Assembly: GCA_015493765.1 (NCBI GenBank)
Contig: WGCQ01000089.1
Location: 1 to 33,636, forward strand
Reading direction: 5' to 3'
DNA length: 33,636 bases
From: Deltaproteobacteria bacterium
Lineage (GTDB): Bacteria > Myxococcota_A > UBA9042 > DTJE01 > S145-11
Positions 12,343-33,556 of the stretch are shown piece by piece (the stretch's first letter is position 1; the number at the start of each line of letters is the position of its first letter). The notes under the pieces are model-generated. The model was not told the DNA's origin. It was given only the letters and a program-made list of their open reading frames with translations, and searched no databases. Made by a program: the position numbers and the translations under genes.

Positions 12343-12609
12343 CCCAAATCACCTGTCAAATTTGATGGACTCGTAAAAAGTCCGATTTTGGTCATTTTAT
12401 CCTCTGTAACTCTTTGATTTTATTAGACATGGATTTGCCTGTTTTGATTTATTACGAGTCCATCAAATTTGAGTACAAAGGTTGCAGAAAGTTGTTCAGA
12501 TGCAAGAAGTTGAGCCCATTTGAGCGCCGTCGAGCATACATGGGTGAAAATGACGCAGCAGATGGACCGCTTGCGGCGTACGACTGCCGAATTTAGTCAG
12601 GTATTTGGG
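12343..12609. repeat. Inverted-repeat element, copy A (interrupted by a MITE)
   Basis: The left end CCCAAATCACCTGTCAAATT and the right end (12586-12609, core TTAGTCAGGTATTTGGG) are near-complementary. The interior shares CAGATGG-CCGCTTGCGGCG and TACGACT-CCGAATTTAGTC with copy B at 33342-33513. Copy A is longer because a 97-bp element sits at 12366-12462. It lies between the divergent genes argS and the Sel1 gene. No gene is visible; the short open frames here are not supported. Confidence 0.8.
12366..12462. mobile_element. 97-bp MITE-like insertion, copy 1
   Basis: The element has perfect 11-bp terminal inverted repeats TGGACTCGTAA (12366-12376) and TTACGAGTCCA (12452-12462). It is flanked on both sides by the 10-bp palindrome TCAAATTTGA (12356-12365, 12463-12472), as expected of a target-site duplication. 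The corresponding place in copy B (33355-33364) has TCAAATTTGA once and no insert. A second, inverted copy lies at 31668-31762. It contains no coding capacity. Confidence 0.75.
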
Positions 12610-12622
12610 CCTTCCTGTACAC

Positions 12623-12650
12623 TCGACATTGACCTGAGATATGATATAAT
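12623..12650 (+). promoter_or_regulatory. Promoter of the winged-helix/Sel1 membrane protein gene
   Basis: TCGACA (12623-12628) and a perfect TATAAT (12645-12650) are separated by 16 bp. The -35 begins 13 bp after the element's terminal GGG (12607-12609). The predicted start is near 12657, giving a leader of about 27 nt. Confidence 0.65.
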
Positions 12651-12683
12651 TCGACTAAACCTGATTGAGAATCAATGTAGAAT

Positions 12684-15473
12684 ATGGAGAATACAGGTAC
12701 ACAGTCCAAGGCCACAGAGGTAATCAGGGCAAACAACGGGAAGGTCACCCTGCCCGCTTTTACCGCACAGATGGGTACTGACCGTATGACTGCATTACAG
12801 GTACTCAAGTCTTTGATGAGGCAGTACAAATGTAACCTGATCGTCACGGACGAGGGTGTGATCATCTATGATTTCGGTCCGAATTTCCGACCGCACCACC
12901 CGGCCCTGGCAATCCTTGTCATGAATATCGTCGTTTTTTTTATCAAAGTGTGGGATGTGATAAAGGCCCGCTCCCTGTTTGCCGCCTGGTATGTCACCTT
13001 GCCGAATGAAGACCTGTACGGAATGGACTACTACGACGACAAGCAGGAGAAACAGGACAATGCTGCGAGAAAAGAGCAGGACGAAGATGCCTTTTCATGG
13101 GTGGACAGGGAACGAAAAAAGGGCGAGGCCCTTGCCACCCGGGTGATTGCCGGCAAAAACAAGCGCGTTTTTGAGTATCCTATGCCGGACCAGTCGTTCA
13201 TGCATACATACCCGCCGGCCAGCCGTTTATATGCTGACATTGCGAACATGAAACACTGGATAATACGCAAAAATACACGCAACAGGCGGTTCATGAACTA
13301 CGTCAATGCCGTGGGCGGAAAGGTAACCGCAATGGAGTGGGCCGTGTTGTTCGATACGGACCTGCGGGAGGCGGAGGATGCAATTACTGCCCTGTATGCG
13401 GAATACGAATCCGAAGTCCATGTGAGTACGGAAGGGGAACTGGTGTTCGATTTTTCCGCTGCCCTGGGAAAGGATTTTGGCCTTCCGCCGGCACCGTTGT
13501 CCCACAAATTCACGCTGATGCGTGCCACTATCGACCCTGGATTACGGGCAGGGATCTACTTCATGGGCCTGTTCAGGCTGTTAGGTGCACTGGACATGTT
13601 CATTGTTCTACCCTTGCTTATGTTACTGTACCCCGCCTCGTATCACGGTTTCGACCTTAGCCATTTGGGCATAATCGGATTTTTCTGGCTTGTAATCGGT
13701 TTTCTGAACGAAGATCGCATCTTTGGAAGCCCAGACGACCCAGACGACGTATATGGAACGGAATTTTTGAAATGGGTGATTCTGGCCATCTTTATAGGTT
13801 TACCTGTGAAGTACATCGTCGATCTGTTCTGGATGGCCCAGGGGGTGCCCCAGGTGTTGTTTTTGATCTCTTTTATCCTGGCCTTGATGGTATTTTCCAT
13901 CATGTTTGTGGACATGAAGAGGTTTATGATCTACGAGATTGCCATGTTCGGAGGCATATTTATAAGTGCGCTCCTGGTTTCCTGGAACGTGGTTCCACCA
14001 GGACATGGGGCCTTTATCTTTATCACAATGGCAATCATGTTCATCGGGTGGATGATCGAACTGGGGGCTGTATCGCCGATCGCATTTTTCCCCCTCCTTT
14101 CCCAGGTGTTTACCATGATCAGAAGGCTCAAAAACCGCAACCTGTGGTTCAGACTGGCACTACACGAGCACCTGATGCACCGCAACACTGGTATTCCACC
14201 GGACCCTTCGGACGCTGCCGCATTCCTGGGCAAAGAATGCCCGTTTCCGGTGCCAGTGCCTTCTAACAGGGGGTTTACCCGCACCATCGCCGACTTACAG
14301 GGTGAATTACAGGCACCCAATGACCCCAGCAAGCCTGCGTTTTTCGTGTTTCCACGGGTACAGGGCCAGAAAAGGGCGCTTGGATATATTGAAGGGGAGA
14401 AAGAGTTACAGGCCCAGGCGTATGCCCCTCCTAAACCTGCATCGCTATGGTTCAGGTACCGGCTGTACATAAGGCGTTTTATCGTTGGACTGGCATTCGT
14501 GGTGGGGTTCGGGTGGCATCATTATTCGAAGATACACTATTTGATTGCCGGGTGTAACAGTGGCTATGACCGGGCGTGCTATGCACTGGCACAGGAGTAT
14601 GAAACGGGTAAAGACGTCAGGCGTGACCTGCACAAGGCATTGAAACTATACGAAAAGTCCTGTACTGCCGGATACGGCAAGGCATGCAACTACGCAGGAT
14701 GGTGGTTGGAGCATGGAAATCTTGGTTACCGGGACCTGAAAAAGGCCAGGGACCTGTATGAGCAGGCATGCAAAAAAGGCTACAGCATTGGGTGCCTCAA
14801 TGCAGGAGTCGTGTGGGAAGACGGCCGGGGTGGGCCGAAGAACCTGGGGAAGGCCTTTGAATTATATCTTTTGGACTGTAAACGAAATTATCATGCGAAC
14901 AAAATAAAGACTATCCTTGAGGAGGATAATAGTTGTTCCAGGTTAAAGCCCTTGTTGAAACAGGACAAAAATCTCAGGGACCGGGCCGCGGTATTGTGTA
15001 ACAAAGGGAACGCCCTGCTCTGCAATTACCTGGGGGAATTAGCGGAACACGGTCAGGGTGGGCCCAAAGATTTGGAAAAAGCCCTTGTGTTTTATCTAAA
15101 ATCCTGTGACAAAAACAACGATGACGGTTGCCACCATATGAATGCCTTGTTGAATCATAACAAAAGGGGCAGGGACCTGCTCAGGCCCATATGCAACAAG
15201 GGGAATACCACAATTAGCGGCATGGCATGCAATCAACTGGGGTGGAGGCTACGTAATGGCAAAGGGGGACCAAAGGACCCGAAACAGGCCAGGATTTTTT
15301 ATAAGAAGGCCTGTGATAAAAACTATCATTGGGGATGCACCAATCTGGGGTGGCTAATGGAAATTGGTGAAGGTGGACCAATCGACGTGAAAGGGGCAAT
15401 CAAGTTGTATACCAAGGCTTGCAAGTTAGGCGATCCGGATGCATGCAAGTCTGCAAAAGGGCTGTCCAGGTAA
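12684..15473 (+). CDS. Polytopic membrane protein with duplicated winged-helix-like modules and Sel1/Hcp-like repeats
   Basis: 929 aa. Two related N-terminal modules, residues 16-66 (NNGKVTLPAFTAQMGTDRM...VTDEGVIIYDF) and 206-258 (VGGKVTAMEWAVLFDTDLRE...STEGELVFDF), look like winged helices (helix-turn-helix plus beta wing). After each comes a hydrophobic part: one segment at 76-93, then about seven segments between 288 and 470. A last membrane helix (about 599-617) precedes a C-terminal array (623-925) of Sel1-type helical repeats (KALKLYEKSCTAGYGKACNYAGW and so on). These have paired Cys about 7-8 residues apart, as in the disulfide-stitched Hcp proteins of Helicobacter. That suggests the repeats face the periplasm. 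The start ATG has only a weak ribosome site. The function is unknown; a membrane-anchored sensor or scaffold is one possibility. Confidence 0.8.
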   Translation: MENTGTQSKATEVIRANNGKVTLPAFTAQMGTDRMTALQVLKSLMRQYKCNLIVTDEGVIIYDFGPNFRPHHPALAILVMNIVVFFIKVWDVIKARSLFAAWYVTLPNEDLYGMDYYDDKQEKQDNAARKEQDEDAFSWVDRERKKGEALATRVIAGKNKRVFEYPMPDQSFMHTYPPASRLYADIANMKHWIIRKNTRNRRFMNYVNAVGGKVTAMEWAVLFDTDLREAEDAITALYAEYESEVHVSTEGELVFDFSAALGKDFGLPPAPLSHKFTLMRATIDPGLRAGIYFMGLFRLLGALDMFIVLPLLMLLYPASYHGFDLSHLGIIGFFWLVIGFLNEDRIFGSPDDPDDVYGTEFLKWVILAIFIGLPVKYIVDLFWMAQGVPQVLFLISFILALMVFSIMFVDMKRFMIYEIAMFGGIFISALLVSWNVVPPGHGAFIFITMAIMFIGWMIELGAVSPIAFFPLLSQVFTMIRRLKNRNLWFRLALHEHLMHRNTGIPPDPSDAAAFLGKECPFPVPVPSNRGFTRTIADLQGELQAPNDPSKPAFFVFPRVQGQKRALGYIEGEKELQAQAYAPPKPASLWFRYRLYIRRFIVGLAFVVGFGWHHYSKIHYLIAGCNSGYDRACYALAQEYETGKDVRRDLHKALKLYEKSCTAGYGKACNYAGWWLEHGNLGYRDLKKARDLYEQACKKGYSIGCLNAGVVWEDGRGGPKNLGKAFELYLLDCKRNYHANKIKTILEEDNSCSRLKPLLKQDKNLRDRAAVLCNKGNALLCNYLGELAEHGQGGPKDLEKALVFYLKSCDKNNDDGCHHMNALLNHNKRGRDLLRPICNKGNTTISGMACNQLGWRLRNGKGGPKDPKQARIFYKKACDKNYHWGCTNLGWLMEIGEGGPIDVKGAIKLYTKACKLGDPDACKSAKGLSR

Positions 15474-15673
15474 GATTTCCGGCTCTTCCGGAATTAGCCT
15501 GGGTAATGGATCGGGATTTGAGTTTGATATGCGATGCATATCGGCTGATAGGGTCCGACTGTGGTCCTGAATCCCGAATTTAGTTCGGTAATTTGGGTCT
15601 TAGTCCGGTAATTGACAAACATCCGCTATTTAATGTAAAAAGACTTAATGACTTGCACCCATGGGAGGTAAAC
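15474..15673 (+). promoter_or_regulatory. OPT operon upstream region with tandem TTAGTC-GGTAATT motifs and promoter
   Basis: Three versions of the recurring motif lie here: a degenerate one at 15490-15511, a good one at 15575-15597 (CGAATTTAGTTCGGTAAT then TTGGG), and a partial one at 15600-15616. A perfect TTGACA (15612-15617) stands exactly 14 bp after the GGG of the good copy. The -10 is weak: TGTAAA at 16 bp or TAAAAA at 18 bp. The 17-bp palindrome GATATGC-GAT-GCATATC is at 15526-15542. Confidence 0.6.
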
Positions 15674-17656
15674 ATGGCAGGACCTGGTAAGCACTTTGTT
15701 CCACCTGAACAACAGATGACGGAACTCAGTATCAAGGCAATACTTTTAGGCATGTTACTGGCGGTGATCCTGGGCGCTGCGAATGCATACCTGGGACTCA
15801 AGGCGGGCATGACCGTTGCGGCAACCTTCCCGGCTGCGGTCATTGCAATGGCAGTGCTGAGACCGCTGCGTGGCACAATCCTGGAGGAAAACCTCGCCAG
15901 GACCACTGGTGCCGTTGGCGAGGCATTGGCTGCAGGCGCCATTTTTACACTGCCGGCATTCATTATGACCGGTGTATGGAAACACCTGCATTACCTGGAA
16001 GCAACCGCAGTGGTACTGGTTGGTGGGATTTTGGGCGTTTTATTCATCATATTCCTGCGCCGGGCACTGGTGGAGGATACCACGCTGCCCTTCCCCGAAT
16101 CCAAGGCAACCCGGGAAATCGTGGTTGCAGGCCAGGGCGGCCAGACCGGGGCGGCTTACGTTTTGTGGGCCATGGTCTTTTCGGCGGTCGTGGAACTATT
16201 TAATAACGGCAAGGGCCTGAAGTTGATAAAGACCTCGGTGACCTGGATATGGACCATCGGCAAGTCCAAGATCCAGTACCTCAATCCCTCGACCAGCAAG
16301 GCATTCAAGCTGGCCGGCACCCACAAGGCTGTGGCACCGGCAAACTACACGGGCCACCTGTACTTTGCCACGCCAAACGTATCGGCGGCACTGGTCGGCG
16401 TAGGCTATATAATCGGGCCGAAACTGGCCTCCTTGACCTTTGCCGGCGGGGTGTTGGGATGGTTGTTTCTAATGCCTATTGTACTCTTCCTCAACAAGGA
16501 CCTGATAGGGCTCCAGCACGTTACCGGTGCAAAATCCTTTATGACCATCGCCGCTTCCGCATACAATGCCCAGGTCAAGCCCATTGCTGTGGGCGCCATG
16601 CTGGTAGGTGCGTTTTACACGCTGTACAAGATGCGTAACAGCCTGTTTGAAGGCGTAATCAGGGCTTTCAAACCCGCAGGTACAGGTGCGACCGAGGAAA
16701 AGGATTCCCGTGTAAACAAGGACATATCGTACAAACTGGTCGGAATTGGCGTCCTGTTGCTGCTGGTTCCACTGTTCTTGATTTACTGGCATTTTGCAAC
16801 GAGCATGGCCGCTGGCCTGGTTGCGACCCTGGTGATGGGTGCGCTCGGATTTTTGTTCGCCGCTGTTGCAGGCTACCTGGTTGGCATGATCGGGTCTTCG
16901 TCCAACCCCATATCCGGCCTGACATTGTCCACCCTGCTGATCGCCGCCATCCTGATGGTTGCCATGGGTTCAAAGGGTAAATCCGGTATTGCGGCCGTGC
17001 TGGGCGTAGCAACCGTGGTATGCGCCGTTGCCGGCGTGGCTGGCGACATGATCCAGGACTGGAAGGTCGGATATATGCTGGGTGGTACGCCCTGGAAGAT
17101 GCAGGTGGGAGGCCTGTTGGGTGTTACGGCAGCCGGCCTGACCCTGGTATTCGTCATATCCCTGCTGCAAGGCGACATCATCAACGGTACGTTGCCAGCC
17201 CCCCAGGCCGGGCTAATGGCCATGATGTCCCAGGGTATCGTAGGCGGCCAGATGGCGTGGTCATTGGTGATCGTTGGCATGCTGTTCGCCGTGGCCCTGA
17301 TCCTGATGGGCTCACCCAGTCCGATGTTGATCGCAGTGGGCATGTACCTGCCGTTTCAGTCCACATTCGCCATATTCTTCGGCGGGCTGATCAAATGGTT
17401 CGTGGAGTCGTACCTGGAAAAACGCAACGCATCCAAGGAACAGAAACAGGTGGCCGAAAACTCAGGACTGCTGTTGGCGTCAGGCATGATCGCCGGTGAG
17501 GCGTTGATGGGCGTCACCATTGCAGGTCTGTTTGCCGCAGGCATAAAATTCCCTGTGTTGGGTGATTCGGCCTGGCTTGGATTCTTTTTACTGTTGACAT
17601 TCGCTTTTGTGCTGAGTTATTTCCCGATCAAGAAGGTCATGGGTGCGAAAAAATAA
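15674..17656 (+). CDS. OPT-family oligopeptide transporter
   Basis: The 660-aa protein is almost entirely membrane-embedded, with about 14-16 hydrophobic helices. It carries features of bacterial OPT transporters: ANAYLGLKAGMTVAATFPAAV near the N-terminus, FPESKATREIVVAGQGG in the first half, and MIGSSSNPISGLTLSTLLIAAI in the second half. The family imports small peptides or metal-chelate complexes, probably coupled to protons; the substrate cannot be read from sequence. I start at the ATG at 15674 because GGAGGT sits 4 nt upstream (15664-15669). An in-frame start at 15593 would overlap the promoter. The next gene overlaps its end by 14 bp. Confidence 0.93.
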   Translation: MAGPGKHFVPPEQQMTELSIKAILLGMLLAVILGAANAYLGLKAGMTVAATFPAAVIAMAVLRPLRGTILEENLARTTGAVGEALAAGAIFTLPAFIMTGVWKHLHYLEATAVVLVGGILGVLFIIFLRRALVEDTTLPFPESKATREIVVAGQGGQTGAAYVLWAMVFSAVVELFNNGKGLKLIKTSVTWIWTIGKSKIQYLNPSTSKAFKLAGTHKAVAPANYTGHLYFATPNVSAALVGVGYIIGPKLASLTFAGGVLGWLFLMPIVLFLNKDLIGLQHVTGAKSFMTIAASAYNAQVKPIAVGAMLVGAFYTLYKMRNSLFEGVIRAFKPAGTGATEEKDSRVNKDISYKLVGIGVLLLLVPLFLIYWHFATSMAAGLVATLVMGALGFLFAAVAGYLVGMIGSSSNPISGLTLSTLLIAAILMVAMGSKGKSGIAAVLGVATVVCAVAGVAGDMIQDWKVGYMLGGTPWKMQVGGLLGVTAAGLTLVFVISLLQGDIINGTLPAPQAGLMAMMSQGIVGGQMAWSLVIVGMLFAVALILMGSPSPMLIAVGMYLPFQSTFAIFFGGLIKWFVESYLEKRNASKEQKQVAENSGLLLASGMIAGEALMGVTIAGLFAAGIKFPVLGDSAWLGFFLLLTFAFVLSYFPIKKVMGAKK

Positions 17657-18044
17657 GGACCACACCGCTGCCAAATCAGGGGACGTGGACATCCTGCAAA
17701 CCGTACCGGTGGTCCGCGTGGAATCCGAGATCGCCGAAGATGGCAAAGTAACCCTGCTGGTCCCCCGGTATCATTCCCGCCTGGCCAAAAAACTGCTCGG
17801 CGCCGTAAGCGGAAAGGACGTTGTCCGGGTGGACCTGGACGAAATCGGCAGCAAGGTATGGCGTTTAATCGACGGACACCGTTCAGTGGCCGAGATTACA
17901 CACAGCCTTCAGTCCGAAATGGACGTGGAACAGGCCGAGGCCAGGATGCAATTATTCATACGTGCGTTGTCAGCACGCAGATTTGTGGACCTGTTTATCG
18001 TCACGCAACAAGAGGAAGCCCCCCCCTCAGAGCCAAACAGGTAA
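17643..18044 (+). CDS. PqqD-like peptide-binding protein coupled to the OPT transporter
   Basis: The 133-aa protein has a PqqD-type winged-helix core. VDLDEIGSKVWRLIDGHRSVAEITHSLQSEM (about 61-91) contains the hallmark LD-iGa-iW-liDG-tsv-ei pattern, followed by a C-terminal helix. PqqD folds are RiPP recognition elements that hold leader peptides for modifying enzymes, but no radical-SAM or precursor gene is visible here. The start is GTG at 17643, within the last codons of the OPT gene (AAGAAGG about 7 nt upstream), so translation is coupled. The pairing suggests a cytosolic partner that binds a transported peptide or regulates the transporter; this is inference. Confidence 0.8.
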   Translation: MRKNKDHTAAKSGDVDILQTVPVVRVESEIAEDGKVTLLVPRYHSRLAKKLLGAVSGKDVVRVDLDEIGSKVWRLIDGHRSVAEITHSLQSEMDVEQAEARMQLFIRALSARRFVDLFIVTQQEEAPPSEPNR

Positions 18045-18170
18045 ACTTCAACCAAATTTACTGACCGGTCGTTTTCAGGAAGGGGGATCAGACCCCGCAT
18101 GTGCGCCTCGCGTATCCGAAAACAGCACGGCTGGCATCAGTGGAATAAAACAGGAATCCGGACTTTGGGC

Positions 18171-18758
18171 TTATTTCACCCGTTTTTTCAAGTAATTAAC
18201 AAGGATATTGACCGAATCCTGGATATGCCTGCCCAGCCAACTACCCAGGGCGGTAAATCCACCCCTGGCCCCGGAATTGGCATCTATGGTGAAATCCGCA
18301 ATGGTCTTGCCGCCTTTTGTGATGGTCACGTCCGTCAGCATGTATGAGGCGCCCGCCCCAAATCCTACCATGAACCTGGCAGCATTCGAACCTGCATCAA
18401 AGGTCTTTACATCCAGGTTTACCACGGCAGCACCCGGCATGGTTGCAGCCGTTTTCGGGGTATAAAGCAATGCCTTTAAACCTTCCTTACGCAAATTTGC
18501 CACGGCCTGCTGCGCAAAGGTATCATGCAGTTGTTTACGCCCCGCAGCCACGCTGGGTGGGTCATCCGAAAAATCCCCTTGAAATTTCGTTTTGGACGCA
18601 TCAACCGGCTTAATCAGGATGGGATCGGACCGGGTAATTGCCCCCGGATTCAATTGCAACCTGGCCTTTGTTACCTCTGCACCAGCACAACCAGCCACGG
18701 CCAGGGCAACTGCCGACAGAATGACCACCATCAGGGTTTTGATCGATTTCTCAAGCAT
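18171..18758 (-). CDS. DUF4410-like outer-membrane lipoprotein
   Basis: The 195-aa protein has a clear lipobox, LAVAGC24. The mature part contains ILIKPVDASKTKFQGDFSDD and FAQQAVANLRKEGLKAL. A Gly-rich segment follows (MVGFGAGASYMLTDVTITKGGKTIADFTIDANSGARGGF), then a C-terminal amphipathic helix (ILVNYLKKRVK). This layout (a beta strand with a functional-site pattern, a glycine-rich region, then a GxxGR-type segment) resembles DUF4410 lipoproteins. The biochemical role is unknown. The gene has its own good promoter (18795-18823) and GAGGAG ribosome site. It is convergent with the OPT/PqqD operon. Confidence 0.7.
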   Translation of the reverse strand: MLEKSIKTLMVVILSAVALAVAGCAGAEVTKARLQLNPGAITRSDPILIKPVDASKTKFQGDFSDDPPSVAAGRKQLHDTFAQQAVANLRKEGLKALLYTPKTAATMPGAAVVNLDVKTFDAGSNAARFMVGFGAGASYMLTDVTITKGGKTIADFTIDANSGARGGFTALGSWLGRHIQDSVNILVNYLKKRVK

Positions 18759-18794
18759 CGCTTCTCCTCATACGTACAGGTTATAAGTTACCCT

Positions 18795-18823
18795 ATTGTA
18801 TCAGCATGCCCGGTTTTTGTAAA
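18795..18823 (-). promoter_or_regulatory. Promoter of the DUF4410-like lipoprotein gene
   Basis: On the minus strand TTTACA (complement of 18818-18823) and TACAAT (complement of 18795-18800) are 17 bp apart; each matches five of six consensus bases. Confidence 0.65.
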
Positions 18824-18830
18824 TATGAAA

Positions 18831-18864
18831 TGCCGGACGGACCTGAACCTGGAAATTTCCGGCA
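18831..18864 (-). terminator. Possible weak terminator after hisC
   Basis: TGCCGGA (18831-18837) pairs with TCCGGCA (18858-18864) immediately after the hisC stop. The minus-strand transcript continues with TTTCATATTT rather than a clean U-tract, so the call is tentative. Confidence 0.35.
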
Positions 18865-18867
18865 GTC

Positions 18868-20037
18868 TCAGATTAAATCCGGCTTGTTGGGATAGGCATT
18901 CATGGACGGGCGGATGGATTGCCTGGTACCGGAAAGCACTACTGCAACCCGGTTAACGAATTGACGCATATCGTCCATAGTGCCCACGGTAACACGGATC
19001 CAGCCATCCATGCCAGGCATGGATGAGCGGTCACGTACGAAGCAATTCAGGTCATGGAGCCCCCGGACGAAATCGTGCGGATTGTCCACGTGAAACAGGA
19101 TGTAATTGGCATGTGTCGTCCTGGCGTCTATGCCCATTTTTAAGAGCTGGTCCACCGTCCATTCCCTGGCTGCCCTGACCCGTTTTACATATGTACTCAT
19201 GTATTCGACATCCTCCAGGGCACCAACGGCTGCTGCCTGGTTCAGGCTCGCCACACTTTTAGGGTTATGCAATTTCGACAGTGTTGCCACGACCTCGGGG
19301 TGGGCCAGCACGTAACCAACGCGTAACCCGGCCATGCCAAAGGCCTTGGAAAATGTCCTGGTGACGATGATATTTGGGTAGGTGTCCACCAGGTGCGCAC
19401 AGGTGGTGCCTGAGAATTCGAAATAGGCCTCGTCCAGCAGGAAGATTACATTTTCGAAACGCCTGGCCATGCGTTTGACCAGTTCGCCATGGTAAACAAT
19501 GCCCGTTGGATTTGACGGACTCGGCAGGTAAAGCATGGATACGCCATCATTTAATGCGGCCCGTAAAGCATTCCAGTCCACCTGAAACGGGTCCTGGTAC
19601 ATGATTTCCCGGATCTGCAACCCCGCGCCCCTTGAAAACACCACAAAATGGCTGTACGTCGGCACAGGTACGCCCACCACTGAGCCCGGGTCCATAAAGG
19701 TCCGAACAATGAGTTCCAAGGCGGAATCGCTGCCGTTGGTTACGAGGATGTGATCCGCGCCAAGCCCCGTGTACCGGGAAATTGCCATGCGCAGGCGTTT
19801 AACGGCAATATCCGGATACAGGTTCAGGTGATTTTTCGACAGGTGGTTGCGTATTGCCTGGACCACGTTGGGTGAAGGTGGCCGGGTGGACTCGTTCCAG
19901 TCCAGTTTCAGCGGCACGGGATACGTTTTGCGCAAAGAGGCATCCCTCGTGTTGGCCGGGTCGTACGGGGACAGGGTCTGAACCGCTTTGTTGGGCTTTG
20001 GAATTGGTGTCAATGTGTGTTTGCTGTCCTTGCTCAA
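18868..20037 (-). CDS. hisC: Histidinol-phosphate aminotransferase family enzyme
   Basis: This PLP fold-type I aminotransferase would convert histidinol phosphate and 2-oxoglutarate to imidazole-acetol phosphate and glutamate. Visible sites are WNES near residue 47, VTNGSDSALELI (phosphate-binding loop), PSNPTG (about 173-178), LDEAYFEF with the PLP-binding Asp202 and Tyr205, TRTFSKAFGMAGLRVGY with Schiff-base Lys231, and the C-terminal substrate Arg in GWIRVTVGT. I start at TTG (complement of 20035-20037), since AGGAGGT lies 6-7 nt upstream; the longer ATG frame puts this site inside the coding region. The gene is alone, away from other his genes, so activity on aromatic amino acids is also possible. 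Confidence 0.88.
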   Translation of the reverse strand: MSKDSKHTLTPIPKPNKAVQTLSPYDPANTRDASLRKTYPVPLKLDWNESTRPPSPNVVQAIRNHLSKNHLNLYPDIAVKRLRMAISRYTGLGADHILVTNGSDSALELIVRTFMDPGSVVGVPVPTYSHFVVFSRGAGLQIREIMYQDPFQVDWNALRAALNDGVSMLYLPSPSNPTGIVYHGELVKRMARRFENVIFLLDEAYFEFSGTTCAHLVDTYPNIIVTRTFSKAFGMAGLRVGYVLAHPEVVATLSKLHNPKSVASLNQAAAVGALEDVEYMSTYVKRVRAAREWTVDQLLKMGIDARTTHANYILFHVDNPHDFVRGLHDLNCFVRDRSSMPGMDGWIRVTVGTMDDMRQFVNRVAVVLSGTRQSIRPSMNAYPNKPDLI

Positions 20038-20069
20038 GGTAGCACCTCCTGTCGCAACATACTGCAAAA

Positions 20070-20117
20070 AGCATACCACAATTATTTTATTACTCAAGAA
20101 AATAATTCATTGAGTAA
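20070..20117 (-). promoter_or_regulatory. hisC promoter with overlapping inverted-repeat operator
   Basis: On the minus strand TTGAGT (complement of 20092-20097) and TATGCT (complement of 20070-20075) are 16 bp apart. The -35 is embedded in a perfect 8-bp inverted repeat TTACTCAA-N12-TTGAGTAA (20090-20117), the layout expected of a repressor site. Confidence 0.55.
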
Positions 20118-20174
20118 AAACAAAGTATTACACTTTTTTGGGAACTTTTAGCGTACCACAAACCTGCGCCTTGT

Positions 20175-20203
20175 GGATAATGTTTTATCCGGTTAGTGGA
20201 TAA
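20175..20203. promoter_or_regulatory. GGATAA/TTATCC repeats after lgt
   Basis: GGATAA (20175-20180), TTATCC (20185-20190) and GGATAA (20198-20203) make two overlapping inverted repeats: a 4-nt loop hairpin and a TTATCC-N7-GGATAA arrangement. The latter is identical in spacing to the one inside the lgt promoter. It lies immediately past the lgt stop and upstream of hisC, so it could be part of a terminator or an operator. Confidence 0.4.
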
Positions 20204-20206
20204 ATA

Positions 20207-21163: not shown

Positions 21164-21181
21164 ACACGACCTCCACGCATC

Positions 21182-21210
21182 ATTATCCCTGGTAAGGATA
21201 AACTGGTCAA
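21182..21210 (-). promoter_or_regulatory. lgt promoter with internal inverted repeat
   Basis: On the minus strand TTGACC (complement of 21205-21210) and GATAAT (complement of 21182-21187) are 17 bp apart; each matches five of six consensus bases. Between and across them lies TTATCC-N7-GGATAA (21183-21201). Confidence 0.65.
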
Positions 21211-22035
21211 GAACGGAGGCTTAGCCTGAAATTAGTCGGGTAATTTTGGGAAAATGAGCCAACTTCGATGTCTTCGGATACTTGACAGGTAAGGGCTTGA
21301 GATGGTAGCAAAAAAGAAAATACCCCAAGAATCAACGGTAAGTTTGGGTTTTTCGGCTCTAATCCTGCAAAAATTCCAAATTTTTACCCCAACCGGGTCG
21401 TTTAACATCCGTATTCCGTGGCCGAGTCCGCGGCCGTTGGCCGTGTACACAAGGTTATGCGTGGTCACATATGAAAATCTTGCGTTTTCGTTTTTGTGAT
21501 ATTGAAACCGTGCGGGTTTACACCCGCCACTACGAATCATGCACGGTATTCTTGCTGGCGACACCGACCCCGAGCCATTGCAACAAACCTTTGCCTGTTT
21601 CAAATCTTGCATCCCTGCCTGCCGGACCTAAACCCTGATATGCAACGCATATCACATCTTTATTGAGGCCCGGGAGGGCCGAGCGAGTCACGCAGCCACA
21701 GCGCAACAAACGGCCTCGAAGCCGGCGAGGAATCAGGGAGGCAGGGACACATTCGGACCCAGTAGCCGATATGCATCGCATATCAACAAAAATCTTGCAA
21801 TTCAAAAACGCTATAAGTGCATGTAAATACGCCACTATGGCCACCAAATGTTTACCCTAATCCCCTGTACATGCGTTTTGTCAGAATGGACGATTTTGTG
21901 CCCTGATTTTGTAATGCTTTGATAAATAACGTACTCTAAAAATAACCTGTATCGAAGATTCCTCGAAAATGCATCAAACTTGACAGTGGAAGTGTTCTTT
22001 GAAACAATAGCAGAGGGAATATATAAGGTGAGAAC
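21211..22035. other. Gene-free intergenic region with several repeat families
   Basis: No credible gene in about 825 bp. It holds a degenerate motif copy (21228-21250, TTAGTCGGGTAATTTTGGG), a short ACGG-type remnant (about 21417-21445), and two direct copies of a longer unit that begins CGGACC and ends in the palindrome GATATGC-N3-GCATATC (palindromes at 21637-21653 and 21768-21784). A related inverted unit is at 15526-15542. The small open frames inside lack ribosome sites and protein-like composition. The right end carries the FHA operon promoter. Confidence 0.7.
21980..22008 (+). promoter_or_regulatory. Promoter of the FHA operon
   Basis: A perfect TTGACA (21980-21985) is followed after 17 bp by AACAAT (22003-22008, four of six). 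The leader would be about 20 nt with AAGGTGAG before the ATG. Confidence 0.55.
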
Positions 22036-25187: not shown

Positions 25188-25249
25188 AGTCAGGTGAGCG
25201 CGAAGGAAAGGTCTGTTGTGGGGGTTACCTCAGGATTGCGCCGCCACGG

Positions 25250-25663
25250 TTAATTTTCCCTGGTTTTGCCTGCAACCTGAATCCTGATTTCGGCCTTGGC
25301 CATGGACAATTGCAGGCGCTGGTAGTCCTTGGTGTTGGGTTCGGCATCCTTGAGGGCCTGCCGGACGCTTTCCAGTTTTTGCCTGGCCCGCGCCACGTCG
25401 ATTTCGTCCCTTGTCTCGCAGGTCTCAACCAGGCAATTTACCGTGTCCGCCAGCACCTCCACGTAACCCCCTGAAATCGCAGCAATCGTTTCATGCCCCT
25501 GTGCGTCCGATACCCGCATGACACCAACGCGCAGCGCCGCCATCAACGCCTCGTGACCGGGCAGGATTTGCATCTCGCCCACCTTGCCCGGCAGCGTGAC
25601 CGACGCGACCTTGACGCCTTCGAACTTTGCACCGTAAGGGGTTACAACATTCAGTATCACCAC
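25250..25663 (-). CDS. atpC: ATP synthase epsilon subunit
   Basis: The epsilon subunit caps the central stalk and modulates ATP hydrolysis. The 137-aa protein has the N-terminal beta sandwich (VTPYGAKFEGVKVASVTLPGKVGEMQILPGHEALMAALRVG, then SGGYVEVLADTVNCLVE) and the C-terminal helical hairpin (about 85-130). It starts with GTG directly after the atpD stop codon; two consecutive GTG codons are possible starts (25661-25663 or 25658-25660), preceded by GGGGAG. It ends the atp operon and is convergent with the FHA operon. I see no clear terminator in the 62-bp gap. Confidence 0.93.
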   Translation of the reverse strand: MVILNVVTPYGAKFEGVKVASVTLPGKVGEMQILPGHEALMAALRVGVMRVSDAQGHETIAAISGGYVEVLADTVNCLVETCETRDEIDVARARQKLESVRQALKDAEPNTKDYQRLQLSMAKAEIRIQVAGKTREN

Positions 25664-27091
<1,428 letters not shown>

Positions 27092-27967
27092 TTATTTCAG
27101 GGCCTCCGCGCCCGCGACAATCTCCATCAATTCCGTTGTAATGGCGGCCTGCCTGGTCCTGTTGTATTGCATGGTTAGCCGCGTGATCATATCCTCGGCA
27201 TTGGTCGTTGCCGCATCCATTGCCGTCATCCTGGCCCCCATTTCGGCAGCCAGGGACTCGAGCACTGCGAAATACAGCCTCACATTCACGTACAACGGCA
27301 GGATCGCCTCCAACACCTGTGCCATTGACGGCTCATACAAAAATTCCCGCGTGTCCTCCACGGGCCTCAACTCGACACCCATTTCCTCGGGCAGGATCGG
27401 CAGCAGGCGTTCCACCACGATGTCCTGTTTCGCCGCATTCTTGAATTCGTTATAAATAATGTATGCCGCATCCAGCCCGTTATCGATGTAGCGGCTCACG
27501 ATTTCGGCCCCGATCTCGGAGGCACGCTCCATGGTCGGCTCCGTCAGTACGTCCATGTATTCCCGGTTTATCCGGTAGTTGTGAAAACGCAGGTATTCCC
27601 GGCCCTTTTTGCCGATCACGGCCAGGTCAATCTGCTCGTGGCCGCCTTCGTTGTCCTTTATATAGCGCTCGGCTCGTTTGCTGATATTGGCATTGAAGGC
27701 ACCGCACAACCCGCGGTCCGATGTCACCACGATCACCATGGCATGCTTCTGCGGCCTGACAGCCAGCAGCGGGTGGGCATCCCTGTTCACACGCATCCCC
27801 AGGTCCGCTATCACCTGCCTGACTCCGTTTGCATACGGCTTGGCACGCTCCATGTTCGCCTGGGCACGCCGCAGTTTCGCAGCCGCCACCATCTTCATGG
27901 CCTTGGTGATCTGGTGCGTCTTGGTCACCGCAACGATGCGCTTTTTCAACTCCTTCAGAGTGGCCAT
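27092..27967 (-). CDS. atpG: ATP synthase F1 gamma subunit
   Basis: The central rotor shaft of F1, 291 aa. The N-terminal helix TLKELKKRIVAVTKTHQITKAMKMVAAAKLRRAQ and the C-terminal helix ERASEIGAEIV...EMGARMTAMDAATTNAEDMITRLTMQYNRTRQAAITTELMEIVAGAEAL form the coiled-coil axle. The central Rossmann-like region contains VIVVTSDRGLCGAFNANI. The ATG overlaps the atpA stop by 1 bp, so expression is coupled. Confidence 0.96.
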   Translation of the reverse strand: MATLKELKKRIVAVTKTHQITKAMKMVAAAKLRRAQANMERAKPYANGVRQVIADLGMRVNRDAHPLLAVRPQKHAMVIVVTSDRGLCGAFNANISKRAERYIKDNEGGHEQIDLAVIGKKGREYLRFHNYRINREYMDVLTEPTMERASEIGAEIVSRYIDNGLDAAYIIYNEFKNAAKQDIVVERLLPILPEEMGVELRPVEDTREFLYEPSMAQVLEAILPLYVNVRLYFAVLESLAAEMGARMTAMDAATTNAEDMITRLTMQYNRTRQAAITTELMEIVAGAEALK

Positions 27968-29505
27968 CAGCCGGCCTCCTGTGTGAAGGTCGCCTTGAAT
28001 TCCCGTATCCCCTGGGCCATCTTCTCGCGCACAACGTCGGACAACTGGCCGCTGTCCCTGATTTCATCCAGTACATCCTGGTGCTTTGCCTCGAAATAGG
28101 CCAGCAATTCCTTTTCAAAGCGTCCCAGCACGTCTGTTGGCAGGTCCATCAAAAAGCCTTCCTTCGCGGTCCCGGCAAAGATGATCAACACCTGTTTTTC
28201 CATGGACAAGGGCTTGTACTGTGGCTGTTTCAGGATTTCCACCAGTCGCCGCCCCTTTTCCAACTGGGCCAGGGTCGCCTTGTCCAGTTCGCCCGCAAAC
28301 TGGGCGAATGCCTCCAGTTCCCTGTACTGCGCCAGGTCCAAACGCAGGCTGCCGGCCACCTTTTTCATGGCCTTGCGCTGGGCCGCGCCACCCACACGGG
28401 ACACGGACAGGCCCACGTTGATGGCCGGCCGTATGCCCTTGTAAAACATGTCGGTTTCCAGGTAAATCTGGCCGTCGGTGATGGAAATCACGTTCGTAGG
28501 GATGTATGCGGACACGTCGCCCGCCTGGGTCTCGATGATCGGGATCGCTGTCAGGCTGCCGCCGCCCAGTTCGTCATTCATCTTTGCCGCACGTTCCAGC
28601 AGTCGCGAATGCAGGTAGAACACGTCCCCGGGATATGCCTCGCGGCCAGGCGGACGCCGCAACAGCAACGACAACTGGCGGTATGCATTGGCGTGCTTGC
28701 TGAGGTCGTCATAAAAGATCACGCTGTGCTGGCCGTTGTCCCTGAACCATTCGCCCATGGTACAGCCTGCATAGGGTGCAATATACTGCATGGGGGCCAT
28801 CTCGGATGCGGTGGCCGCTATCACAGTGGTGTACTCCATGGCACCGAACGATTTCAGGCGTTCCACCACCTGGGCCACGGTGGACTGCTTCTGACCGATG
28901 GCCACGTATATGCAGTACACCGGCGTATCCGTTTCGTGCGTGTACTTCTGGTTGATGATCGTATCAATCGCGATGGCTGTCTTGCCGGTCTGGCGGTCAC
29001 CGATCACCAGTTCTCGCTGGCCGCGGCCGATCGGCGTCATGGCATCGATCGCCTTGATCCCTGTCTGCAGGGGCTCGCGCACGGGCTGCCGCGCCACAAT
29101 CCCCGGGGCCTTTATCTCGATGCGGCGGTATTCCTGGGCCTCCACCGGGCCAAGCCCGTCCAACGGCTCGCCCAGGGCGTTCAGCACGCGCCCGACCACC
29201 GCCTTGCCCACCGGCACCTGTGCGATCTTGCCGGTCCGCTTGCACGTATCGCCCTCACGAATTTTCGTTGCCTCGCCAAACAACGCAACACCCACGTTGT
29301 CCTCTTCCAGGTTCAGCACGATCCCCTTCACGCCATGCGGAAATTCCAGCAACTCGCCGGCCATGGCCTGGCTGAGCCCATAAACCCTGGCGATCCCGTC
29401 GCCGCTGTACATGACCACGCCCGTATCCGACAGTTCCAGTTTGCGACCGAACTGCTCTATCTGGTTGCGCAGTACCTTGGTTACTTCACTGACCTTGATG
29501 TCCAT
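27967..29505 (-). CDS. atpA: ATP synthase F1 alpha subunit
   Basis: The non-catalytic nucleotide-binding subunit of F1, 512 aa. The beta-barrel region carries [10 protein letters not shown] and [13 protein letters not shown]. The Walker A loop GDRQTGKT lies at 169-176 and the Walker B-like strand is [48 protein letters not shown]. The arginine-finger motif [13 protein letters not shown] is intact. It is 3 bp from atpH, whose stop precedes it. Confidence 0.97.
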
Positions 29506-29508
29506 GTA

Positions 29509-30063
29509 TCAGCCTCCCACCAGCCGTGTTTTCAATGCCTCGATGTATCCCTGTATCGTCATGTCGAACACCCGATCCCCTGTTACCACCTTTAGCCCGC
29601 CCAGCACCTTCGGGTCTACCACCTTTTCCACTATCACCCGTTTTGCCCCGAGTTTCTTTTTGATTGCGTCGCTAAGTTTCGTTACCAGGAACATGGACAA
29701 GGGTTTTGCCGTGATCACACGTACCCTCACCCAGCCGTTCGCCTGATCCAGGGCCTCGGTAAAGCCCACGGATATGGCGCCGATCAAGTCCAACCTGTTG
29801 TTGTGCAACAATAATTTTAACAGGTTCATGGTCAATGTATTAAAACGCGCTGCCTTGGCAACCTTTGCAATCAAATCCATGCGTTGTTCCATGGGCAGGG
29901 CGGGATTTTTCAGGGTCGATTTCAATTCCCGGACCTGGGTAAACAACCGGTCGGCATCCTGAAGGTCCTTTTGAATGACCTGGGCCACGCCCTTGGCCTG
30001 TGCAGCCTGCAGCAAGGCATCCGCGTAACGCCTTGCCAGGATATTTACGAATACCTGGGTCAC
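29509..30063 (-). CDS. atpH: ATP synthase delta subunit
   Basis: The 184-aa delta subunit joins the peripheral stalk to the top of F1. The N-terminal six-helix domain begins NILARRYADALLQAAQAKG. The C-terminal signature region reads VIVEKVVDPKVLGGLKVVTGDRVFDMTIQGYIEALKTRL, matching the conserved V-P-LiGG----ig--viD-S---rL pattern. Its ATG overlaps the atpF stop by 4 bp. Confidence 0.94.
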   Translation of the reverse strand: MTQVFVNILARRYADALLQAAQAKGVAQVIQKDLQDADRLFTQVRELKSTLKNPALPMEQRMDLIAKVAKAARFNTLTMNLLKLLLHNNRLDLIGAISVGFTEALDQANGWVRVRVITAKPLSMFLVTKLSDAIKKKLGAKRVIVEKVVDPKVLGGLKVVTGDRVFDMTIQGYIEALKTRLVGG

Positions 30064-30611
30064 AGGGCCTCCATTTCCTTGATGAATCGATCAATCAGTT
30101 TAGCGGTCGGTGCAATTCCACCTTGTTTTTTCAGTGCATCGACAATTGCATCCACGGCCAGGTTCACCACGTTGCCGCGGACCCTTTCCGACATCTCGGC
30201 CTGTGCCAGTGCGACCCTGGCCTCGGCCTGTCGTTTCAAGCGTTCGGCCGCAGCCACAGCCTCGTGCATGGCCGCCTGCTTTTCCTGTTCACCCTTGGCC
30301 CGGTAACTGGCCAGCAGTTCGTCGATTTCTGCCTGGATGTTGGCCATGTGGGCCTTGTATTCGTCCAGTTTCGCCTCGGCCTGCCGCAATGCGCCTTCCG
30401 CCTCGTCCAGTGCCGCCTTGACCTGCTCGGAGCGGTCCTTGAAATAGCGCTTGATCGTAGGGGCCAGCAGCCACCACATGAGCCCCACGCCCACGATGAA
30501 ATCGATGATGTAATTGCCGTGGATCGACCAGATGAACTTGTTTGCCTCGCCGGATTCCCCGGCAAACGCCAGTGCGGGCATCAGCAACAGCAACAGGACC
30601 AGGCCCCTCAT
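30060..30611 (-). CDS. atpF: ATP synthase b subunit with N-terminal signal-like segment
   Basis: A peripheral stalk subunit of 183 aa. The hydrophobic leader MRGLVLLLLLMPALAFAGES looks like a cleavable signal peptide. It is followed by a membrane helix (about 33-51) and a long amphipathic stalk helix. A signal-like leader on AtpF is something I associate with deltaproteobacteria. The ATG at 30609-30611 has GGTGGAG just upstream and overlaps the b' stop by 4 bp. The open frame extends further upstream without a ribosome site, so the longer form is rejected. Confidence 0.92.
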   Translation of the reverse strand: MRGLVLLLLLMPALAFAGESGEANKFIWSIHGNYIIDFIVGVGLMWWLLAPTIKRYFKDRSEQVKAALDEAEGALRQAEAKLDEYKAHMANIQAEIDELLASYRAKGEQEKQAAMHEAVAAAERLKRQAEARVALAQAEMSERVRGNVVNLAVDAIVDALKKQGGIAPTAKLIDRFIKEMEAL

Positions 30612-31060
30612 CGCTCCACCTCCATGATCTTTGCCTGCATCACGCCGGCCAGTTCCCTGGCGATTTGTTCCTCCTGGGCCTTCAACTGGGCCTCTTGTGC
30701 CTTCAGCACCTCCATGTCCTTTTGCACCTTGGCCTGCAATTGCTGTTGTTCCCGTTGCAGGATTTCGTCCCGTGCGCGCATGCCCTCCTCGCGCAGCCGT
30801 GCACGTTCGGCCTGGCCCTTTGCCCTGGCCTTTTTCAGGTTCTCCATGTACTCCTGTTTCATTTCCTCGGCCTTGACCTCGATCTCCCTGGCGTCCTTTT
30901 TGCGGCCTTCGGTCAGGTCCTCTTGAACCTTTTTGGCCTTCAGGTAGGGCTTGAACACCAGGGGCGTCAGGATGCCCCATAACAGCAGGAACGTGATTAG
31001 CTGCACAAAAAACGAACCATCAAGGTCGATCAATGCGGCCCTTGCGATTTCTATTTCCAC
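30608..31060 (-). CDS. atpF2: ATP synthase b' subunit
   Basis: This is a second peripheral-stalk subunit of 150 aa. ALIDLDGSFFVQLITFLLLWGILTPLVFKPYLKAKKVQEDL contains the membrane helix, followed by a highly charged stalk helix to the end. A b/b' heterodimer is used by phototrophs, cyanobacteria and many deltaproteobacteria. The start is GTG with GGAGG 12 nt upstream, a long spacing. It is the first gene of the operon; genes for subunits a and c are absent. Confidence 0.9.
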   Translation of the reverse strand: MEIEIARAALIDLDGSFFVQLITFLLLWGILTPLVFKPYLKAKKVQEDLTEGRKKDAREIEVKAEEMKQEYMENLKKARAKGQAERARLREEGMRARDEILQREQQQLQAKVQKDMEVLKAQEAQLKAQEEQIARELAGVMQAKIMEVER

Positions 31061-31093
31061 GGTTCAGCCAGCCTCCACCAATATCAACCATGA

Positions 31094-31146
31094 CAACACG
31101 GAAAGGTGTTGCGCATATCCCTACCATTGAACCACTTTTTTGTCAA
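31094..31146 (-). promoter_or_regulatory. Candidate atp operon promoter and leader hairpin
   Basis: On the minus strand a perfect TTGACA (complement of 31141-31146) has only a poor -10 (TAGGGA) at 17 bp. The leader contains a hairpin CAACAC-N6-GTGTTG (31094-31111). The hairpin may affect translation, but nothing more can be said. Confidence 0.4.
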
Positions 31147-31159
31147 GATTCAAAGATCA

Positions 31160-31310
31160 AGATCAGTGGCCGTTGACCGTGACCGTGGCCGTTGACCGTG
31201 ACCGTTGACCGTGTGGGGCCGGCATCCTGCCGGCCTTTTCCGTGGCCGTGGCCGTTGACCGTGGCGGTGACGGAAGTCATGGAGCGCAGGCGTCAGCCGG
31301 CATCTTAAAT
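31160..31310. repeat. ACGG-phased repeat block, inverted relative to 731-1310
   Basis: Read on the minus strand this stretch contains ACGGTCAACGGCCACGG-type units, AAAAGGCCGGCAGGATGCCGG (hairpin at 31216-31235) and CGCCTGCGCTCCATGACTTCC, matching in the same order the modules at 731-1310. The rest of the gap up to 31440 shows no gene. Confidence 0.75.
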
Positions 31311-31443
31311 TATCTTTGTATTTCAAACTATTACAAGACAGACAAATTTCCGAATTCGTCACTAAATCCATCAAATCAACACCCTCGGCCTCGCCCGCCT
31401 TTCCGCGGCCGTGACAACGAATCGCCAAGCGACGTTTGGCTCC

Positions 31444-31508
31444 AAATTTAGTCAGGTAATTTGGGGATCAATCCGGACCTTGACAAAAACGGGTATAACA
31501 AGTAAAAA
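31444..31508 (+). promoter_or_regulatory. tRNA-Ser promoter with recurring upstream motif
   Basis: The motif AAATTTAGTCAGGTAATTTG plus GGG ends at 31465. A perfect TTGACA starts exactly 14 bp later (31480-31485), and a weak -10 TAAAAA lies 17 bp downstream (31503-31508). Transcription would start a few bases before the tRNA. Confidence 0.6.
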
Positions 31509-31520
31509 TCATTCAGCCTT

Positions 31521-31611
<91 letters not shown>

Positions 31612-31667
31612 GCAAATATGGTTCTTCCGGATCCCGCCCCGGTGGAGGCTAACACCGGAGACCAGGA

Positions 31668-31762
31668 TGGATTTGTAATAAATCAAAACCGGTAATTTTA
31701 TGTCTAATAAAATCAAAGAGTTACAGAGGCCAAAAAGCCAAAATCGGCCTTTTTACGAGTCA
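31668..31762. mobile_element. MITE-like element, copy 2 (inverted)
   Basis: This is the reverse-complement homologue of 12366-12462, with shared blocks around AATAAAATCAAAGAGTTACA and the GATTTATTAC end. The ends TGGATTTGTAA and TTACGAGTCAA are slightly diverged terminal repeats. The right flank keeps TCAAATT; no duplication is preserved on the left. Confidence 0.7.
31732..31754. terminator. Possible bidirectional terminator inside MITE copy 2
   Basis: AAAAAGCC (31732-31739) and GGCCTTTTT (31746-31754) form a hairpin with A/T runs on both arms. It would give a U-tract for the tRNA transcript on the plus strand and for pepD on the minus strand, and it lies between these convergent units. Confidence 0.45.
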
Positions 31763-31821
31763 ATCAAATTAGTAATTCCGGATGCGTTTTATGTGCTTGC
31801 ACTTGTGGATCGGGCCATTGT

Positions 31822-33276
31822 TTATGCGGATGCCAGTTTTTTGAGTACCCTCTTCACCAGGTCATAAAAACGCTGTGTGGAATCGATTTCCACGTATTCT
31901 TCCGGTGTATGGGCGTTACGGATGTTCGGACCGAAACTGACCATGTCCATGCCCGGGAAATGGTCACCCAGTATTCCGGTTTCAAGACCGGCATGGATCA
32001 CAGTGACTTCAGGGTCATGCCCGTACATCTCGTTGAAGGCCTCGCGTGTCACCTTCAGGGTCTTGGCATTCATATTGGGCCTCCAGCCCGGATACGAACC
32101 CTGGAATTCCACGATTGCACCGGCCAGTTCACCCGTGGCTGCGATCCTGTTCAGCACGTACTTGATTTCGGAATCCACACTGGAACGGGAACTGCACACC
32201 ACGTCAATGCGGTTGTCCGGTATCTCCACTGATGCCACGTTGGACGATGTCTGGACGATTCCGGGCAGTTCCAGGCTCATGGCCAGCACGCCGTGTGGCA
32301 ACGCCATAATCGTGTTGACCAGTCGCATGCTGAGGTCTGATGTCCAGGCGTTCCCAGGCTTCGACGCGGTGGTAACCTCCACGCTCAAACCAGGGTCAGA
32401 TGTCTTGAATTCATCCTTTAACACCGCGGCAAAATCATTGATCGCCTTTTTGAACCCATCGGCCTTTGCCCTGGGTATCAACACCGTTGCCCAGGCATCC
32501 CTGGGGATCGCGTTGCGCTTGTCACCGCCCTCGAATGTGGACAGGGTGGTCCATGCATCCCTGGTATGTCGCAACAGCCTGGCCAATACCTTCAAGGCAT
32601 TCGCCCGATTGTCATTGATGTTCAAGCCGGAGTGCCCGCCTTTCAGGCCGCCCACCTTTAATTGTAATGCCACGCTGTCCTGGGTTGTTGCCTGGGTTTC
32701 CAGTTTGAAAGAGGTCACGGAATCCGCACCGCCTGCACATCCCACAAACAGGATGCCTTCATCCTCGGAATCCAGGTTCAACAGCAGCCTGCCCTTCAAC
32801 ATTTCAGGCTTCAGGTTGCCCGCACCAGTCAGTCCCCGCTCTTCATCGATCGTAAACAGCAATTCCAATGGTCCGTGCTCCACCGATGGGTCATCAGCCA
32901 CGGCCAGCGCAGTGGCAACGCCTATACCGTTATCAGCCCCCAGGGTTGTACCTCGGGTCTTGATGATATTCCCATCCACCACCGCAGGAATGGGGTCCTT
33001 TTCGAAATCGTGTTCAAAATCAGGGTGTTTTTCGCACACCATGTCCATGTGGCCTTGAAGTACCACTGTAGGGGCCGACTCAAGGCCCGGACTCGCAGGC
33101 ACCTGGATCACCACATTTCCCACCTCGTCGGTCTTGTATGCAAACCCCTTTTGTTTTGCGAAATTGACCACGTAATCCCGTATTCCGGCCTCGTTGCCGG
33201 AACACCTCGGGACAGTCAGAATCCCTGCAAACTGTTTGAACAATGCCTTTGGCTCAAGGTCTTTTATCTCTGCCAT
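31822..33276 (-). CDS. pepD: Aminoacyl-histidine dipeptidase (PepD, M20 family)
   Basis: PepD is a cytosolic dinuclear zinc dipeptidase with broad specificity, including Xaa-His dipeptides. The 484-aa protein has QGHMDMV (His76, Asp78), TTLGADNGIG (bridging Asp115), TIDEERGLTGA (catalytic Glu145 and metal Glu146), LNLDSEDEG (Asp169) and the lid-domain GGHSGLNI. The C-terminal His-bearing region is VTVIHAGLETGIL...MVSFGPNIRNAHTPEEYVEID. Length and motif order are typical. GGAGG lies 6 nt before the ATG. Transcribed from a promoter at 33306-33335. Confidence 0.96.
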   Translation of the reverse strand: MAEIKDLEPKALFKQFAGILTVPRCSGNEAGIRDYVVNFAKQKGFAYKTDEVGNVVIQVPASPGLESAPTVVLQGHMDMVCEKHPDFEHDFEKDPIPAVVDGNIIKTRGTTLGADNGIGVATALAVADDPSVEHGPLELLFTIDEERGLTGAGNLKPEMLKGRLLLNLDSEDEGILFVGCAGGADSVTSFKLETQATTQDSVALQLKVGGLKGGHSGLNINDNRANALKVLARLLRHTRDAWTTLSTFEGGDKRNAIPRDAWATVLIPRAKADGFKKAINDFAAVLKDEFKTSDPGLSVEVTTASKPGNAWTSDLSMRLVNTIMALPHGVLAMSLELPGIVQTSSNVASVEIPDNRIDVVCSSRSSVDSEIKYVLNRIAATGELAGAIVEFQGSYPGWRPNMNAKTLKVTREAFNEMYGHDPEVTVIHAGLETGILGDHFPGMDMVSFGPNIRNAHTPEEYVEIDSTQRFYDLVKRVLKKLASA

Positions 33277-33305
33277 TTCATGCCTCCTGTAAAACAGACC
33301 GACTG

Positions 33306-33335
33306 ACTATAGCACCAAAAAGGTGGGGTATCAAA
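33306..33335 (-). promoter_or_regulatory. pepD promoter
   Basis: On the minus strand TTTGAT (complement of 33330-33335) and TATAGT (complement of 33306-33311) are 18 bp apart. The -35 is only 6 bp from the left end of inverted-repeat element copy B. Confidence 0.5.
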
Positions 33336-33341
33336 CAGGGA

Positions 33342-33513
33342 CCCAAATTACCTGTCAAATTTGAGGACAAAGTACGCCGAAAGTGGTCCAGGTACAAGGC
33401 CCAATTTGAGGCAGGCGTACTTAGCGGTACGTTGAGCATCAAATTGGTGCAAACGACGAAGCAGATGGGCCGCTTGCGGCGTACGACTACCGAATTTAGT
33501 CAGGTAATTTGGG
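33342..33513. repeat. Inverted-repeat element, copy B (uninterrupted)
   Basis: The 172-bp element has ends CCCAAATTACCTG and CAGGTAATTTGGG that are perfectly complementary over 13 bp, with looser pairing further in. The interior carries CAGATGGGCCGCTTGCGGCG like copy A. TCAAATTTGA occurs once (33355-33364), at the point where copy A holds the MITE. It lies between divergent pepD and the gene at 33574. Confidence 0.8.
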
Positions 33514-33527
33514 AGGGGCATCCCAAA

Positions 33528-33556
33528 TTGACAAGCACCGCCTTATCATGTAGCAT
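33528..33556 (+). promoter_or_regulatory. Promoter of the gene at the window end
   Basis: A perfect TTGACA (33528-33533) stands exactly 14 bp after the terminal GGG of element copy B. TAGCAT (33551-33556, four of six) follows after 17 bp. Confidence 0.6.

Follow-up and report, generated by a model that had tools for sequence, protein, structure and literature searches.

Ends of a dispersed fold-back element lie at a fixed distance from predicted sigma-70 promoters in a deltaproteobacterial genome

The window analyzed here, a stretch of 33,636 nucleotides (contig WGCQ01000089.1 of the Deltaproteobacteria bacterium assembly GCA_015493765.1), contains several copies of a short motif, TTAGTCAGGTAATTTGGG, at an almost constant distance from the -35 boxes of unrelated genes. 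This motif is the terminal inverted repeat (TIR) of a dispersed fold-back element, and throughout the sampled genome the ends of this element are often followed, after 14 or 15 bp, by sequences resembling sigma-70 promoters. The family is best explained as a miniature inverted-repeat transposable element (MITE) whose transposition is probably directed to sigma-70 promoters, at about position -50.

Element ends and their distance to promoters

A search of the whole genome (3.57 Mb, 279 contigs) on both strands with up to two mismatches gave 396 matches to the end sequence and none to the reversed control pattern. The earlier note had seen one end only; the motif terminates a longer element, the other end of which likewise faces outward. 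Pairing of ends within the sampled sequence yielded 71 complete elements in the first set defined below and 89 in all. Their commonest length is 178 bp, with the ends CCCAAATTACCTGTCAAATTTGAGG (L) and CCGAATTTAGTCAGGTAATTTGGG (R); the TIRs are of the CCCAAATTACCTG type and their pairing spans 20 positions. The elements are flanked by a target site duplication (TSD) of 5 bp, since for this length the identity of the flanks is raised at all positions and exceeds that for other lengths. It is of varied sequence and partly eroded, being exact in 11 of 71 elements and matching in at least four of five positions in 22 of 71. Because of the TIRs at both ends, the modal length of 178 bp and the 5-bp duplication, the family is by anatomy a MITE, i.e., a short, non-coding element with TIRs, TSD and many dispersed copies. 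Many other ends stand alone as solo ends or are parts of longer or composite forms.

For the determination of the spacing two sets of sequence were used: a first set of 1.17 Mb with 280 ends, consisting of the window and the sequences L031-L110, which were picked mostly for holding copies, and a held-out set of 0.45 Mb with 98 ends which was obtained afterwards (total 1.62 Mb, 378 ends). In the first set 67 ends have a TTG at a distance of 14 bp and 31 have one at 15 bp (98 of 280 ends), compared with about 6.5 per other offset. The held-out set gave a TTG at 14/15 bp for 26 of 98 ends, with 4.6 expected (p 6e-12), and the pooled data 124 of 378, with about 18 expected (p 2e-59) and a background of 9.1 per offset. 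Exact TTGACA hexamers occur 27 times at 14 bp and nine times at 15 bp, while no other offset has more than four. R and L ends both peak at 14/15 bp, by the TTG count as well as by a position-weight promoter score. The earlier note had named a lack of preference for 13-15 bp among the copies of the genome as grounds for refuting its reading, and these counts do not refute it; its argument that randomly scattered repeats would not hold such a spacing was correct. The constancy of the spacing is thus real and of high statistical significance.

An artefact of duplicated loci is ruled out, as 83 cases at 14 bp and 40 at 15 bp remain after removal of near-identical flanks. Chance, or a mere abundance of promoters in intergenic DNA, is likewise ruled out by the sharpness of the 14/15 peak, by the held-out data and by shifted windows: a promoter-like flank at 13-16 bp was found in 61 of the 89 complete elements, compared with 9-24 of 89 when the window was shifted. 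The other dispersed repeat families of the genome have no peak at 14/15 bp.

When the flanks are aligned on the TTG, a TTGACA emerges, followed about 17 bp on by a TATAAT-like box, which in the 15-bp class is preceded by TG. Of the TTGs at 14/15 bp, 59% have a -10 box with at most two mismatches downstream, vs. 32% of other TTGs. The letters between the end of the repeat and the TTG are random (pairwise identity 0.26), and the promoter is therefore not part of the repeat. The flanking promoters seem to be sigma-70 promoters which the host uses for unrelated genes, among them tRNA-Ser, Sel1-repeat, OPT and argS. That the repeat holds an outward promoter of its own, one of the options raised by the earlier note, would be in keeping with promoters adjoining both ends, but is contradicted to the point of near impossibility by this comparison: the stretch up to the -35 box is unrelated among copies (26% identity), the offset is 14 bp in some copies and 15 bp in others, and the -35 and -10 boxes are provided by repeat-free flanks.

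An internal promoter is known from the Correia elements (CREE/NEMIS) of Neisseria, which are similar in being short, TIR-bounded fold-back MITEs of intergenic regions, mostly just upstream of genes, and linked with sigma-70 promoters (PMC10969869, PMC2229807). Their promoters are internal, whereas here a host promoter lies at a fixed distance outside. The target duplication of Correia elements is TA (a general statement to this effect also stands in PMC2229807) and not, as here, 5 bp of varied sequence. ERIC, RUP, BOX, YPAL and other bacterial MITEs resemble the present family in size (100-200 bp), high copy number, palindromic structure and RNA-like fold (PMC10969869, PMC2229807). A review of prokaryotic MITEs gives, in its section on insertion preferences, a preference for intergenic regions; that section mentions for none of them a nucleotide-precise spacing to -35 boxes such as the one found here. 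In the open-access literature no precedent for a fixed promoter spacing was found, which is weak evidence of novelty.

Directed insertion weighed against selection

In the proposed mechanism a transposase supplied in trans would have moved the element and would pick its targets by recognizing promoters, either as bound sigma-70 RNA polymerase or as the -35 hexamer itself. Joining of the ends would take place just outside the core promoter, 14-15 bp ahead of the -35 box and at about -50 relative to the transcription start. As the core promoter is left intact, such insertions would be well tolerated, and if the AT-rich end next to the promoter influenced transcription, this would be a secondary effect.

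The main alternative is a random insertion of the MITE followed by selection: with an activator bound to the TIR near -62, or the TIR serving as an UP element, mainly copies with the right spacing would have been kept. Class I activator sites of the CRP type are centered near -61.5. The TIR end lies near -51 and the center of the 24-bp palindrome near -62, so that a palindrome occupies the same place relative to the -35 box, at a fixed distance, as in class I sites. Moreover, 91 of 113 promoter ends aim at the nearest called ORF. The palindrome, however, is part of a mobile element with TSD, and no regulator was identified; the genes concerned are unrelated (tRNA-Ser, argS, Sel1, OPT), and under this alternative insertions should also fill neutral intergenic positions. 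More and less divergent ends have a promoter equally often. Promoters are equally frequent at solo and paired ends (42% vs. 41%), and ends on the promoter side were thus not specially kept. On balance we consider the selection of randomly inserted copies unlikely. The earlier note had proposed an activator or UP-type site of a common regulator; the fixed relation to the promoter is borne out, and a regulator site, though possible, is less probable than an insertion directed by promoters.

Insertions inside genes favor targeting. They were recognized when the joined flanks, minus one target duplication, restored the reading frame; the genes were named from their translations and the IS4-family gene by NCBIfam. 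Three of them keep the spacing: an insertion in a TolB-like gene (TSD TCAGG, TTGACA at 14 bp, poor -10), one in an IS4-family transposase gene (TSD ATATA, TTGCTG at 14 bp) and one in an Rpn-like gene (TTGTAC at 14 bp, TSD inexact), each with the frame rejoined. The spacing is held here with no evident downstream gene to activate, which points to insertion targeting and not to a designed regulatory site. As evidence of a mobility of the family, the rejoined genes at the insertion sites are indirect only. The insertion in the Rpn-like gene is shared by two copies of this gene (L062 5149-5326; L034 near 128), and the gene was seemingly copied with the element inside.

At about ten places a second end lies 178-187 bp behind the first one, separated by a short junction (mostly 4-6 bp) which usually matches the next flank. 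Here an element stands between an older end and the promoter, as if this promoter-set position had been hit again in a separate event. A tandem duplication was rejected as the source of the dimers because the upstream copies are dissimilar (52-69% identity), which argues for re-insertion.

Within promoter-directed insertion, a transposase reading -35-like DNA (TTGAC) directly, with no role of RNA polymerase, is a sub-case that we regard as possible but doubtful. The insertion in the TolB-like gene, with a perfect TTGACA and a poor -10, is what such an enzyme would produce. The flanks are enriched in -10 boxes, in their spacing and in the TG extension, beyond the needs of a hexamer reader; this objection is softened, as a TTGACA between genes mostly lies in a promoter anyway.

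Several observations weigh against directed insertion. About 30% of the complete elements have no recognizable promoter at the respective distance, and the promoters are predictions from sequence. A fourth in-gene insertion, in a nuoN-like gene, lacks a TTG at 14/15 bp, so that the TTG at 14 bp is present in three of four in-gene insertions, which are few cases. The empty sites are reconstructions from the flanks within this one genome. Among R ends, those next to the promoter carry fewer mismatches than the distal ones (0.47 vs. 1.23, p 0.02), which would also fit the selection of right-spaced copies; L ends have no such difference. This conservation hints at some selection after insertion, or a possible later regulatory use. 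Finally, a transposase with matching TIRs was not found: PF01609 (DDE_Tnp_1) and IS1634-type genes are present, none of them with matching ends, and the 1.62 Mb examined contain no TIR-and-TSD-bounded stretch of 0.43-6 kb. An IS1634-type transposase at C12 with a CCCAAATTACC end upstream was considered as parent and is unsupported, as other repeats separate the end from the gene and the contig breaks.

A guided choice of targets is known for bacterial transposons, namely by attTn7, by CRISPR guides and by the replication clamp. If promoter-directed insertion holds true, guidance by promoters, with a precision of one or two bases at about 100 sites, would be a new guide for bacterial transposons; the element would spread to promoters without breaking them, and its insertions would serve as a natural map of the promoters that are active in this uncultured lineage. 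The Ty1/Ty3 retrotransposons insert upstream of Pol III genes at a place set by the transcription machinery. They share the fixed place of integration and differ in being eukaryotic, integrase-driven retroelements, so that they are an analogue of the mechanism only and no homology is claimed. As the spacing is exact, in-gene insertions exist and a simple transposition assay could decide, the question of targeting vs. selection becomes testable for bacterial MITEs.

Strand-specific fold of the element

The whole element (33342-33513 together with alignment A1, 35 copies) folds back on itself with strong compensatory change: its 55 pairs are 95.9% kept, and 20 of them have changes on both sides. 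The covariation score of 0.224 exceeds that of all 500 shuffles (mean 0.124) and of all slid versions (at most 0.042). The consensus fold reaches -49.8 kcal/mol on the L-to-R strand compared with -23.7 kcal/mol on the other strand. The alignment holds 214 G-U vs. 25 A-C cells, a raw count which is biased by the derivation of the structure, the comparison of the two strands being fairer. As the fold is far stronger on the L-to-R strand, G-U/G-T wobbles matter and the constrained form would be one strand. This single strand may be RNA or single-stranded DNA, and the element may pass through or be held as a folded strand. A repair of imperfect palindromes could also make matching arms, but a wobble preference for one strand is not expected from repair. 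Mosaic copies show recombination between subfamilies, and a comparison with Rfam gave no match at E<=1. The widest reading, in which a bacterial transposase guided by RNA polymerase-sigma-70 (or by contact with the -35 box) integrates some 50 bp ahead of the transcription start, is in our judgment evenly balanced between true and false; a folded single-strand stage or constraint of the element would be a further reading.

Copies within the window and accompanying repeats

A scan of the window with up to three mismatches gave seven matches to the motif, with 0.01 expected by chance. Two of the seven lie on the minus strand and are the opposite ends of the elements 12343-12609 and 33342-33513, and the copy at 12593 (GGTATTTGGG) is one base short. 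Neither 51 other genomes of the class nor viral contigs contain the end sequence, and the 24-mer end is absent from the contigs of GTDB 220. The PilM protein encoded in the window has its nearest named relatives (61%) in uncultured Myxococcales and deltaproteobacterial genomes.

The element at 33342-33513 (plus strand, 172 bp from L to R end) is complete, is bounded by the TIRs CCCAAATTACCTGTCAAATTTGAGG and CCGAATTTAGTCAGGTAATTTGGG and can be aligned with 34 other copies. From the GGG of its R end (33511-33513), 14 bp lead to the TTGACA (33528-33533) of a predicted sigma-70-type promoter (33528-33556, plus strand; spacer 17, TAGCAT). The same-family element at 12343-12609 (plus strand) is lengthened by a nested second repeat (12359-12472). 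Its R end (GGG 12607-12609) lies 13 bp from the putative promoter of the Sel1-repeat gene (12623-12650, plus strand), which consists of TCGACA, 16 bp and TATAAT. On the opposite side a TTGCTA (12322-12327, minus strand), overlooked in the earlier note, lies 15 bp outside the L end at 12343 and faces argS, a gene assigned by its domains.

Two solo R ends are located on the plus strand. The one at 15574-15597 (GGG 15595-15597) stands upstream of the OPT transporter gene and lies 14 bp from its TTGACA (15612-15617, plus strand). The other at 31442-31465 (GGG 31463-31465) precedes tRNA-Ser(CGA) (31521-31610) and is followed after 14 bp by the putative tRNA promoter (31480-31509, plus strand; TTGACA, spacer 18, AAAAAT). 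The earlier note had thus described these four sites correctly, including the perfect TTGACA in three of the four boxes. The degenerate copy it listed at 21228-21250 (plus strand) is present as well; it adjoins another repeat (GAGCCAACTTCGATG...) and has no promoter at 14/15 bp. The same combination (21232-21275) recurs at L071 4919, L050 16686 and L072 6655 as a composite repeat without promoter.

From the multiplication of the motif proposed for 15490-15616 one extra partial copy remains (TTAGTCCGGTAATT, about 15600-15613), which overlaps the -35 box; the CCGGAATTAGCCTGGGTA stretch is part of another repeat family. A third repeat, GGCTCTTCCGGAATTAGCCTGGGTA, which is palindromic and dispersed (15487-15510; L070 and others), partly explains this apparent multiplication. 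The second dispersed repeat family (ACTCGTAAAAAGTC ... GATTTATTACGAGTC) is found at 12359-12472 and 31666-31770, and its copy nested inside the 12343 element has TCAAATTTGA on each side. Long arrays of GGCCACGGTCAACGG-type units occur in both orientations at 810-1290 and 31154-31290 and also break up many elements throughout the genome. Two identical 23-bp copies of TTGATATGCGATGCATATCGGCT lie in inverted relative orientation at 15524-15546 and 21764-21786.

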